This document shows positions 55,321 through 61,401 of a stretch of DNA of 64,000 nucleotides, in pieces. Below the pieces are notes generated by a model, which worked only from the letters and a program-made list of their open reading frames with translations, did not search any database and was not told the DNA's origin. This stretch comes from Vulcanisaeta distributa JCM 11216 (GTDB lineage Archaea; Thermoproteota; Thermoprotei; Thermoproteales; Thermocladiaceae). Both the position numbers and the translations under genes were made by a program. How positions within the stretch are numbered: the first letter of the stretch is position 1; the number at the start of each line of letters is the position of its first letter. The DNA lies in assembly GCF_001315985.1 (NCBI RefSeq), contig NZ_BBBI01000005.1, positions 62,001-126,000 on the forward strand, read 5' to 3'.

Positions 55321-55836
55321 ATGGGCATTGGCGATAAAGTTACCGAGTTAGTAAGGAAAGCCCGTGATGCAGGCTTTCTCGAGTTTTACGAAGTCAATGA
55401 ATTGGTAAGGAGTATAATTGAGAGCTCCAGTGAAGTTAACGCAATACTTTATAGACCTGGTGAGATGCCTATACTCGTTAATGCTGCTAAGGAGGATGAT
55501 TATGTATCGATCGCGTTATTGGATTTGAATCTCGCTGAGGAGGTGGGTGCTAAAGACGTACCGCAGCTCATTAATGGGTTTAGGGATCTTGAGGATATAA
55601 CTACCAGAATAGGCTTTGAACTTTATGGAAGTAGATCAATAGCGCCCTTCCTGTACCCACTGTATCTAGATGAAACTAGTAAGGTTGCCCTCGTGGTCCT
55701 AGGTATAAAGTCTGCCGTAAGTAACCAATTATTTAATGAAAACTTTGTTGAAGAATTGATCGAGGATTTAAGATTCAATTCAGACGCATACATATTCCGC
55801 ATAATTGACGCACTTAGGGTTTCACCTAATAAGTGA
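55321..55836 (+). CDS. Hypothetical protein in the sulfate island
   Basis: Not recognised. 171 residues, intact frame. It has a helical start (KVTELVRKARDAGFLEFYEV) and alternating strands (PILVNAAKEDDYVSIALLDL, PFLYPLYLDETSKVALVVLG), and resembles a small alpha/beta ligand- or partner-binding domain. No Cys, no membrane segment. It is divergent from dsrMK and 39 bases upstream of the SQR-like gene. A G7 run at 55296-55302 lies just before it and may be an inflated GGGG. Function unknown; chaperone or sensor roles are open. Confidence 0.6.
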   Translation: MGIGDKVTELVRKARDAGFLEFYEVNELVRSIIESSSEVNAILYRPGEMPILVNAAKEDDYVSIALLDLNLAEEVGAKDVPQLINGFRDLEDITTRIGFELYGSRSIAPFLYPLYLDETSKVALVVLGIKSAVSNQLFNENFVEELIEDLRFNSDAYIFRIIDALRVSPNK

Positions 55837-57593: not shown

Positions 57594-58844
57594 ATGTCGA
57601 CCCAAACAAGTCAACCAAGCGACCTTGAGCGTGGCATGAAGATGCTTGAGTATCTTGAGGGTGGTCCTTGGCCTAGTTATGTGGCTGAGCTTAGGAAGAC
57701 GAAGTACCCGATTGAGGCTTACGCCGAGGGCTTGGCTAAGAAGTACACGCCTTGGTTAAGTGGGTCCTTTAGGGTTAGGTACGTATTCAGCGGAATACTA
57801 GCCAGAAGAAGCAGGGATGGAAAATTCGTCGAAATACACTTCAGGACTTACGCACCCGCCGGCAGGTTCTACTCAACTAGTTACCTGAGGAAGGTTGTCG
57901 AGGTTGCCAAGAAGTATGGAATTGGCCTAGTGGAGCTTGGCGGTAATACTGGCGCGCTAGTCCTTAACATGATTGCGGAGAAGGCTGATGAGGCTGTTGA
58001 TGCCATAAGGACGATAATGGGCAGTGACGTTGGTGGTTCAGGCGATACGTTCAGGGAATTCTACGCGTGTCCCGGTCCTGCCCTATGTGAATTCGCACTA
58101 TATGACACATTACATGCCATGGATTATGTTAGGTCACACCCAGTGATCTATAGGTACTTAAATACGCAGATGTTCCCGTATAAGATAAAGTTCAAGTTCA
58201 GTGGTTGTCCAATGGACTGCGCCACGGCAAATTCTAGGTCAGACTTTGCGCTAATTGGTACCTGGGTTGGACCGCCAGAGGTTGACCAGGGATTATTTAG
58301 GAAAATGGTTGAGGAAGGCAGGATAAATCCGAGGGAGATCGTTGAATCATGCCCGTCAAAGGCCATTACCTGGGATGAGGAGAGGAAGGAGTTGAGGATA
58401 GATGGTTCCAAGTGCCTAAAGGCTATGAACTGCATCAGAAAGGCATTCCCAGCAATTAAGCCCGGTAGGAATAGGAAAATAGCGCTTCTCGTTGGAGCGC
58501 ATGCCCAGGGCCACTTCGGCCCTAAGCTTGCTAAGGCGGTGGCACTCCTGGACTCAATAGAGGAGGTTATACCATTTGCTGAGGAATTAGTTAATAAGTA
58601 CATGGAGTTGGCACCACGTAGGCATAGGATTGGTGATATGATAATTAGGAGGGGGGGGTTCAAGGTGATTAGTGAGGTTGCTGAGAAGACATTACCGAAT
58701 AAGCCAAAGGGTACCCCCCCATCCACGCACCTAAGGATTTCCATAGGTGCGGTTTTGACTGATGATGAGAGGAGGTTGTATGAGGATTGGTCAAAGCAAC
58801 TAGTGAATGAGTACTTTGGAAGTAGTTCCAGCACGGGGGGGTGA
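57594..58844 (+). CDS. dsrA: Dissimilatory sulfite reductase alpha subunit
   Basis: Catalyses sulfite reduction with DsrB on siroheme. It has 416 residues in one frame from ATG 57594. Siroheme/[4Fe-4S] ligands: FYACPGPALCEFALYD (Cys-x5-Cys) and FSGCPMDCATANSRSD (Cys-x3-Cys). The inserted ferredoxin domain is VESCPSKAITWDEERKELRI followed by DGSKCLKAMNCIRKAF: only three of the four expected Cys ligands are present, since the usual Cys-x2-Cys-x2-Cys reads Cys-x2-Ala-x2-Cys. Three substitutions would be needed to explain this as error. The gene overlaps dsrB by 1-3 bases (TGATG). Its promoter carries the CACGTG element. Confidence 0.96.
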   Translation: MSTQTSQPSDLERGMKMLEYLEGGPWPSYVAELRKTKYPIEAYAEGLAKKYTPWLSGSFRVRYVFSGILARRSRDGKFVEIHFRTYAPAGRFYSTSYLRKVVEVAKKYGIGLVELGGNTGALVLNMIAEKADEAVDAIRTIMGSDVGGSGDTFREFYACPGPALCEFALYDTLHAMDYVRSHPVIYRYLNTQMFPYKIKFKFSGCPMDCATANSRSDFALIGTWVGPPEVDQGLFRKMVEEGRINPREIVESCPSKAITWDEERKELRIDGSKCLKAMNCIRKAFPAIKPGRNRKIALLVGAHAQGHFGPKLAKAVALLDSIEEVIPFAEELVNKYMELAPRRHRIGDMIIRRGGFKVISEVAEKTLPNKPKGTPPSTHLRISIGAVLTDDERRLYEDWSKQLVNEYFGSSSSTGG

Positions 58845-59976
58845 TGCGCATGAGTCTAGCCATAACACCTGAACCTAGGGATAGAATGAATAAGAGACTG
58901 CCTGTGCCCTTCTCCGCCCAATTACCCGAGGTAATTAGGAATAACTATGGCAAGTGGGTTGATAGGAAATTCCATGGCAATGGAATTATTGAGCATATAT
59001 CAGAGACTGGCGATAGGGTATTCACGGTGAAGGTTGGTTTACCGCCAAACAGTAGGGTAAGCATTGATACGCTTGAGAAGTTCGTAGAGATTGCTGACAA
59101 GTACGGCCTAGGTGTTGTCAGAGCCACTAGGGGTATGAATCTTGAGTTCATAACCGACAGCCTCGACAAGGCATTGAAAATAAAGGAGGAAGTTGAGAAA
59201 CTAGGCTTCCCGGTGGGAGGATGGGGGGGCATCTTTATGGCACGTAACATCATGCACGGCATACCTAACCTGCACCACAGCCGTCGTCGACGCGCCATCG
59301 ATAACCCAGGTACTTTATAACCACCTAAAGCCCTTCTTCACAGGCGAGGAGAAGTTACCTGCTAAGCTAATGATTTTTGTGGCTGGTTGCCCAAACGTAT
59401 GTGGCGGCACACTTGCCGGTGACATAGTAATTGTCGGTCATTATGGCCAGGCACCCAAGCCTGACCCAGAGAGGATAAAGTTCTGCTACCCACTAGTGCC
59501 GAGGCGCTTAAGAAGGCCGTCCCTGACGTAGCCGCAGTCTGCCCTGTTGGCGCAATTAAAGTCTTTGGTAAGCCGGATGGCTCGGTTGGCATTGAGGTGG
59601 ATGAGAGGAAGTGCATAGCCTGCAGTAGGTGTAAGAACGTGTGTGATTATTTCGATTGGGATCCGACAAAGATTGGCGTTGCAATATTCGTGGGTGGTAA
59701 GACGAGTAATACGGGCACGGGACCGAGGTTGCCCTATAAGGTGATCCCGTGGTTACCAGTTAACCCGCCTGAGTATAGGGAGATTGTAGCTGCGTGAGGA
59801 AGATAATTGATGTGTGGAGGAGGGAGGCTAAGCCAGGTGAGAGGCTTGGCGACTTTATTGATAGGATTGGTATTGATGAGTTCATGAGTATGCTTGGCGT
59901 TCCAAGGACTAGGCATAACAGGTGTGAGGAGATTTCCTGGAACTTTGGCGTTAGGCAATTCATAACATATATGTAA
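58844..59976 (+). CDS. dsrB: Dissimilatory sulfite reductase beta subunit, frame broken
   Basis: The start is the ATG in the TGATG overlap at 58844. Parts: RVSIDTLEKFVEIADKYGLG, FPVGGWG, then after a G7-for-G5 break at 59224 the siroheme motif TSCTAYLTCTTAVVDAP (Cys-x5-Cys), VAGCPNVCGGTLAGDI (Cys-x3-Cys), and after a break near 59495 the ferredoxin domain AAVCPVGAIKVF and KCIACSRCKNVC with all ligands. A final break at 59797 (G lost) separates the C-terminal helices IIDVWRREAKPGERLGDFID and IGIDEFMSMLGVP, which belong to DsrB and not to a separate small gene. About 378 residues. Confidence 0.95.
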
Positions 59977-60043: not shown

Positions 60044-60988
60044 GTGTTTAAAATGATAAACATAGTTTTAACTCCACCAGGGATTGAATACATTAAATAC
60101 TTAAGGGAGATTGCGTATCACTATGATACCTTCATCGCCGAGGTTCCTAACGTTGAGGGTGTTAGGCGGTATTTAAATGGTGAGATTGATTTTAATCAAT
60201 TGCTTTATGAGATTGAGTATTTTGATGTCGATTATTCCAGGGAGTTTTACGAAATGTTAAGGGGGGGGCTTATTAATAATGGCATTAATGTGGTGCCTAT
60301 TGATCCCTATGGCTCAATCAGTATGAGGATTAGGGTTAGGGCAATACTTAATGATTTGGACCATGGGTCATTAAGTAATGAGGAGAGGTACATAGCCTTC
60401 ATAGAATTGAGGATTGCCGAAGCTTATAGAGGTTATAATTCAGCGTTGCTTAGGGGGGGTAGCTTTGAGGATGCTGTGAGGTATGTCTTGAGGTATGCGA
60501 GGCTCGATGCGGAGAGGATAAAGTTTAGGTCTGAGTTGAGGGCTAGGGAGATAGTGAGGCTATTACGTAGTTTGAACGTGCATTGTGATGTATTGATACA
60601 CGCGGATCATTATAATGAGGTCCTTATGGATTACTTAAGCAGTAAATTAATGTGTAAACCAGGTGTCACAAGGCTTAGCGATGCGGTAAGTAAGAGGTTG
60701 GGAGTAAGGCCCTGGGTTCATCCAGGAGTTAAGTTAACTAATAATTACGTTTATGGGGTGCCCATGGTTAAAAACGAGGAGTATTTACTTGCGTCTCGGG
60801 CATTAATATATGCATTATTAAAGGTGAGGGTTTTTAGAAGGGTTGATAGGGGGGGAGTGCTCGGTGATAGGGCTATATTAATTGATAATTCATTAATGAG
60901 GTTGGCATATGGATTGAACATTGATGATGCTAGGAACATTTTTAAGAAGTTGATGATGCCAAGGAATATGTTTAAGATCAAGGTATAG
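60044..60988 (+). CDS. Unknown protein between dsrB and dsrC (TraB/ChaN-like fold possible)
   Basis: No confident family. 314 residues, intact frame; G7 runs at 60263 and 60456 are in frame. The arrangement EYIKYLREIAYHYDTFIAEV, then INNGINVVPIDPYGSISMRI, VRYVLRYARLDAERIKFRSE with LRAREIVRLLRSL, and DVLIHADHYNEVLMDYLSSK recalls the TraB/ChaN-type metal-hydrolase or heme-binding fold, where an E-x-R-motif helix and an H-D-H stretch contribute, but this is a visual resemblance. It has no membrane segment, and cysteines at VHCDVL and LMCKPG. The dsrB-X-dsrC position suggests a role in DsrC or siroheme handling. Confidence 0.6.
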   Translation: MFKMINIVLTPPGIEYIKYLREIAYHYDTFIAEVPNVEGVRRYLNGEIDFNQLLYEIEYFDVDYSREFYEMLRGGLINNGINVVPIDPYGSISMRIRVRAILNDLDHGSLSNEERYIAFIELRIAEAYRGYNSALLRGGSFEDAVRYVLRYARLDAERIKFRSELRAREIVRLLRSLNVHCDVLIHADHYNEVLMDYLSSKLMCKPGVTRLSDAVSKRLGVRPWVHPGVKLTNNYVYGVPMVKNEEYLLASRALIYALLKVRVFRRVDRGGVLGDRAILIDNSLMRLAYGLNIDDARNIFKKLMMPRNMFKIKV

Positions 60989-61010
60989 GTTTGTCACCAT
61001 TAATTACACA

Positions 61011-61033
61011 TATCACGTGAAATAACCCTTTTA
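61011..61033 (+). promoter_or_regulatory. CACGTG-AAATAA promoter element, dsrC
   Basis: TATCACGTGAAATAACCCTT, then TTA, nearly identical to the dsrA element. CACGTG at 61014-61019 is 53 bases from ATG 61067, matching the dsrA spacing and favouring that start; it is 35 bases from ATG 61049. Confidence 0.7.
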
Positions 61034-61066
61034 CAACATGCCACGTTTATGACATTGGTGAACAAC

Positions 61067-61401
61067 ATGCCAGTAACCTGCCCAGGTGAGTATGAGGTAA
61101 ATGGGAAGAAGGTGATACTTGATGAGGATTGTTTTTTGCAGAATCCCGAGGTTTGGGATGAGAAGGTTGCCGAGTGGATGGCTAAAAACCTCGAGGGTGT
61201 TCAGCAGATGACTGAGAGGCATTGGAAGGTTGTTAGGTACCTAAGGCAGTACTGGGAAACATACGGAGTATGCCCACCAATAAAAATGCTCCTAAAAGAA
61301 ACCGGAGAAACACTAGAGGCATATACGAACTATTCCCAGACGGACCAGCCCACGGAGCATGCAAAGTAGCAGGAGCACCAAAACCAACAGGATGCGTATA
61401 A
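61067..61401 (+). CDS. dsrC: DsrC sulfur-carrier protein, frame broken
   Basis: Substrate or co-substrate of DsrAB that carries the sulfur as a trisulfide. MPVTCPGEYEVNGKKVILDE, VWDEKVAEWMAKNLEGVQ, RHWKVVRYLRQYWETYGVCP and PIKMLLKETGETL are standard. After a C lost at 61318 the true tail is IYELFPDGPAHGACKVAGAP, then KPTGCV, with both redox Cys (10 residues between them) and stop TAA 61399-61401. About 111 residues. The start at 61067 is chosen by promoter spacing and family length; ATG 61049 would add 6 residues. The first Cys in PVTCPG is unusual for DsrC. Confidence 0.92.

Follow-up and report, generated by a model that had tools for sequence, protein, structure and literature searches.

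A conserved gene between dsrB and dsrC of Vulcanisaeta encodes a putative remote relative of the TIKI superfamily

Introduction

The TIKI superfamily includes TraB/PrgY, ChaN and erythromycin esterase, and ChaN binds heme. Members of the superfamily, which has a 2His/2Glu site that some of them have lost, are often hydrolases (PMC6254334). In the passages on the archaeal Dsr pathway in PMC12948486 and PMC10504309, the pathway is thought to be ancient and its minimal set is given as DsrABCNMK; no mention of the protein described below was found in those passages. Here we describe gene X, which lies in a window of 64,000 nucleotides from Vulcanisaeta distributa JCM 11216 (contig NZ_BBBI01000005.1, positions 62,001 to 126,000). 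The gene represents a previously unmodelled family that is confined, within Thermoproteota, to dsrAB-bearing lineages, and it offers a concrete new candidate member of the Dsr pathway.

Results

A sequence-only reading of the window had pointed to an intact, conserved-looking open reading frame at 60044-60988 on the forward strand, placed between dsrB and dsrC, and both its integrity and its place were borne out (Table 1). The frame encodes 314 amino acids when read from GTG; in relatives the conserved start is an in-frame ATG, here at 60053. The copy in Vulcanisaeta sp. JCM 16159 is 91-92% identical, and the orthologues in other Vulcanisaeta are 63-69% identical. By the NG86 method, dN was 0.038 against a dS of 0.21 in the closest pair and 0.09 against 0.74 in another, which gives a dN/dS of about 0.1-0.2; gene X is therefore a genuine conserved coding gene under purifying selection. 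For identical species pairs it diverges much faster than dsrA (63% versus 89% identity), and its product has changed at several times the rate of DsrA. Neither a signal peptide nor a lipobox is visible in X.

Relative to JCM 16159, the gene in the window contains three additional GGG codons (GGGG to GGGGGGG), so that the true product is probably of about 308 amino acids. The breaks in the frame of dsrB are single-base differences from JCM 16159, and dsrC lacks one base in a GGG run, a deletion that is common to the window strain and JCM 16159 and is not found in other species. These breaks and the extra GGG codons look like sequencing or assembly errors. In view of such frame breaks and insertions, gene X was also considered as a pseudogene; this was ruled out, as it is in frame throughout and its relatives are intact.

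The intergenic gaps around gene X are of about 60-80 bases. They would allow co-transcription in a candidate dsrAB-X-dsrC operon. A stretch upstream of dsrC at 61010-61050 (ACGTGAAATAACCCTTTTA) is well conserved among Vulcanisaeta and might be dsrC's own promoter. No RNA element was found in the gene X region, and the viral, phage and plasmid collections gave no gene X match.

Table 1. Positions of gene X, its motifs and the neighbouring dsr genes in the window, and of proteins that follow dsrB in other loci (given as locus:positions).
Feature	Position	Strand	Remarks
dsrA	57594..58844	+	TIGR02064, 320.7 bits
dsrB, several broken frames in assembly	58841..59976	+	TIGR02066 pieces; tblastn
Gene X, TIKI-like family protein, type II	60053..60988	+	311 aa; GTG start of the sequence-only reading at 60044
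First-strand motif PPGIE	60074..60088	+	type I: HRxE
Second-strand motif ExP	60140..60148	+	Glu30, kept in family
Helix motif DAERIKFRSELRAR	60506..60547	+	type I: DxxRxxxRDxMRA
Last-strand motif DVLIHADHYNE	60587..60619	+	type I: VEAGxxH
dsrC, one-base frame break near 61320	61049..61401	+	PF04358, TIGR03342
Conserved 131-164 aa protein after dsrB	L064:8855-9250	-
Conserved 131-164 aa protein after dsrB	L095:9630-10025
Conserved 131-164 aa protein after dsrB	L096:6640-7035	-
Conserved 131-164 aa protein after dsrB	L097:6506-7000	-
TusA in second dsrAB-dsrC locus of G147	L098:305-550	+	opposite strand to the dsr genes

The occurrence of X was analyzed in 398 Thermoproteota genomes of 163 genera, with a single sequence and then with a profile. 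Both searches found relatives in the same numbers, 18 genomes of four genera: Vulcanisaeta (g1), g4 (of the same family as Vulcanisaeta), a single genome of g5, and g66 (family f22); three of the four g4 genomes have two copies. At a threshold of E < 1e-60, dsrA was present in 33 genomes of eight genera. It was found in 15 of the 18 genomes with X and in 18 of the 380 without it (Fisher p ~1e-15, uncorrected for kinship), and all four X genera are among the eight dsrA genera of the 163 (hypergeometric p 2.5e-6). The three X genomes without a dsrA match are all incomplete: G265 has dsrB, G296 has dsrC, and in G260 (88% complete) no dsr gene was found, while its genus mates carry dsrAB. In the class of g66 (44 genomes, 14 genera), all five g66 genomes have X and the other 39 lack it, and dsrA shows the identical pattern, being limited to g66. 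Within Thermoproteota, X thus occurs only in dsrAB-bearing genera. Homologues common in dsr-free organisms, which the sequence-only reading had named as counting against a dsr-related role, were not seen in this phylum, the scope searched.

The reverse relation does not hold. That reading had proposed to check presence or absence across the dsrAB-bearing Thermoproteales, and most of those other than the X genera lack X: in genera g2, g3, g6 and g7, and in nearly all genomes of g5, dsrAB is present and X is missing. Under tentative genus labels (Caldivirga-, Thermocladium-, Pyrobaculum- and Thermoproteus-type), X is absent from presumed Caldivirga-type and Thermocladium-type genomes and from nearly all presumed Pyrobaculum genomes, which shows that sulfite reduction can proceed without it.

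Gene order was then compared. The order dsrB-X-dsrC is found in 7 of 7 Vulcanisaeta genomes with both sides readable. In an eighth (G296) the contig ends inside X, and the X fragment lies beside dsrC; G270, whose contig ends within dsrB, has an unreadable slot and was left out of the count. Outside Vulcanisaeta, X is unlinked to dsr genes: the two g4 copies adjoin an RNA methyltransferase gene (PF02598; copy 1) and the gene for EF-2 (copy 2), the g66 gene adjoins that of the tRNA enzyme TiaS, and the gene in the g5 genome lies near a Csx1 gene, with the dsr cluster 17 kb away (about 2% by chance). The content of the dsrB-dsrC gap also varies between lineages. In Pyrobaculum/Thermoproteus-type genomes dsrB is followed by another conserved protein, one without a Pfam match, in the second dsrAB-dsrC locus of G147 the gap holds TusA in place of X, and in L093 a Nudix-like gene follows dsrB. 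A specific role, which had been suggested from the location, is thus favoured by the fixed position in Vulcanisaeta and by the restriction to dsrAB genera, but weakened by the unlinked copies, the many dsrAB genomes without X and the variable gap.

These observations bear on the possibility that X is a passenger, that is, a general or translation-related gene inserted into the variable dsrB-dsrC gap of a Vulcanisaeta ancestor, its co-occurrence with dsrAB reflecting hot habitats shared by few lineages or the small number of lineages itself. The alternative occupants of the gap, among them the 131-aa form of the Pyrobaculum/Thermoproteus-type protein, the missing dsr neighbours outside Vulcanisaeta and the conserved upstream region of dsrC, which leaves the operon putative, would all fit this. 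However, confinement to dsrAB genera in four lineages, including 1 of 14 genera in one class, is hard to obtain by chance, and we regard a passenger as doubtful.

In the tree, type II (Vulcanisaeta, the g5 genome and g4 copy 1) is separated from type I (g66 and g4 copy 2) with full support, and all dsr-linked X proteins belong to type II. The g5 copy nests among the Vulcanisaeta copies (support 98/96), which points to its acquisition by horizontal transfer. The X of G147, though located in the dsrB-dsrC slot, branches outside this cluster.

No member of the family matched a family or chain in Pfam, NCBIfam or PDB, and PDB searches with the profile and with a single sequence gave nothing. Weak PHROG, NCBIfam and Pfam matches, each to only one or two X members, were dismissed as chance. 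X resembles DsrD, DsrE/F/H, DsrN and other Dsr accessory proteins in sitting inside a dsr cluster, but it is far larger than DsrD and has no sequence match to any of them; searches of NCBIfam and Pfam up to E = 10 brought up none of the DsrD/E/F/H/N profiles, in agreement with the lack of likeness to DsrD and DsrE/F/H noted from the letters. The other impression gained there was a faint likeness to TraB/ChaN. The curated profiles of ChaN/Cofac_haem_bdg (PF04187; solved structure 2G5G) and TraB/PrgY/GumN (PF01963) matched 0 of 20 X members, and PF01963 was not found in 45 genomes of the order to which the X-bearing strain belongs. X is not a recognised member of either Pfam family.

Independent support for the impression came from profile-profile comparison by hhalign, with 12 ChaN-family and 12 TraB-family sequences. 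The best local match of the whole X family was to ChaN (score 32.7, P 0.0015, 154 columns), and the type I subset matched TraB globally (25.8, P 7e-5, 201 columns). As controls, the best of 100 column shuffles each reached 20.8 for ChaN and 7.6 for TraB global, reversed profiles peaked at 18 and 4, and the best of 19 families that lie in the same loci and are unrelated to X reached 25.2 over 30 columns and 15.9, respectively. ChaN against TraB, which are known TIKI relatives, gave a similar strength (P 1.1e-4). In contrast, hhalign in local mode gave no significant match to TraB, since 2 of 100 shuffles scored as well. In register with ChaN are the strand-2 Glu, an 'L.G.I' helix region, a D.MA helix and a 'vl.aG..H' strand, whereas that alignment leaves about 90 C-terminal residues of X unmatched. 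X further differs from ChaN in having no visible signal peptide or lipobox. The best comparisons score above shuffled, reversed and unrelated-family controls; they suggest, without being conclusive, that the X family and the TIKI superfamily share an ancestor, which we consider probable.

The likeness could instead be convergent or due to chance, and X would then have a different, perhaps new, alpha/beta fold. The lack of any Pfam or PDB profile match would be expected then, and the absolute hhalign probabilities are low (17-35%); scores above all three kinds of control, with motifs in register, speak against it, and we think such a fold rather unlikely. AlphaFold models, built from two sequences only (window and JCM 16159), had a mean pLDDT of 34 and were unusable for a fold search.

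The two types differ at the positions of the TIKI-like motifs. Type I has the motifs HRxE, LEEP, EPYL, RDxMRA and VEAGxxH; its FLAHR and RDxMRA resemble GTAH and ERNxLMA of TraB, and an approximate 2His/2Glu set is kept (H10, E31/E32, H183). Type II has, with some variation, PPxxE, xExP, DPY, R[ST]ELRAR and IH[AST]DxxN. Glu30, Glu118, Asp152, Arg155 and Arg163 persist. The catalytic 2His/2Glu constellation is not present in type II, including X: unlike in ChaN, the first-strand His is missing from all its members and the last G..H is replaced. Both His of IHAD..N are kept in most Vulcanisaeta; G147 has VQADYFN, without either. Since the type II positions change together, the site would have been remade or abandoned within a single step of descent, with no random erosion. 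A rebuilt site (IH-A-D-H-Y-N with Glu30, Arg155 and Arg159) would make X an active enzyme, a metal-dependent or His/Asp-based hydrolase or peptidase acting on a Dsr protein or a sulfur compound, as the frequent hydrolases of the superfamily, the invariant or nearly invariant Glu, Asp and Arg and the two His of most Vulcanisaeta would allow; with the first His gone throughout type II and neither later His present in G147, whose copy occupies the dsr slot, this seems improbable.

Discussion

We propose that the product of gene X is soluble and cytosolic and belongs to a small archaeal family with a remote relationship to the TIKI superfamily. TIKI-like active-site motifs are retained in type I and have been replaced in concert in type II, and a type II copy became fixed between dsrB and dsrC in Vulcanisaeta. 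The fold, the loss of hydrolase chemistry and any contact of X with Dsr proteins are inferred. Given that setting, the best guess for X is an accessory or binding protein for the DsrAB-DsrC machinery and not a classical TIKI hydrolase; it could act in DsrAB assembly, in tetrapyrrole cofactor handling or in the handling of DsrC. A cytosolic TIKI-fold protein that has given up its catalytic site and been recruited as a DsrAB/DsrC accessory or binding factor is thus our preferred but tentative reading, with a probability of roughly 0.45.

Several of the above results weigh against this reading: the location of X beside translation genes or near Csx1 outside Vulcanisaeta, the dsrAB genomes that do without it, a divergence that is unusually fast for a core subunit, the altered motif of G147, the local TraB comparison and the low quality of the AlphaFold models. 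As ChaN binds heme, a tetrapyrrole would be the natural candidate ligand of X; that X binds one is a guess by analogy. A bolder version would have X found a new class of Dsr accessory protein, with a TIKI/ChaN fold and a lost hydrolase site, that binds siroheme or DsrC to assist the archaeal sulfite reductase, and with an unlinked type I sister carrying TIKI-like motifs in other dsrAB archaea; we hold this to be unlikely. The X family would also be an example of a hydrolase-like superfamily seemingly turned to another purpose, in which the two versions can be compared directly.

Other features of the window

The Vulcanisaeta dsr loci that were read retain a 171-aa protein (55321-55836 in the window), with a sub-threshold Pfam match only, next to dsrM and an SQR-like gene. 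Homopolymer tracts of exactly 7 G or C abound across the whole window (16 per 10 kb), tracts of 6 being rare and those of 4 depleted; no tract of 7 occurs in relatives, and aligned sites show GGGG changed to GGGGGGG (+3). The excess is genome-wide in the source genome (G000, including L099-L101), is also seen in L104 (G383) and is absent from G395 and G367. It is most likely an artefact of sequencing or assembly.
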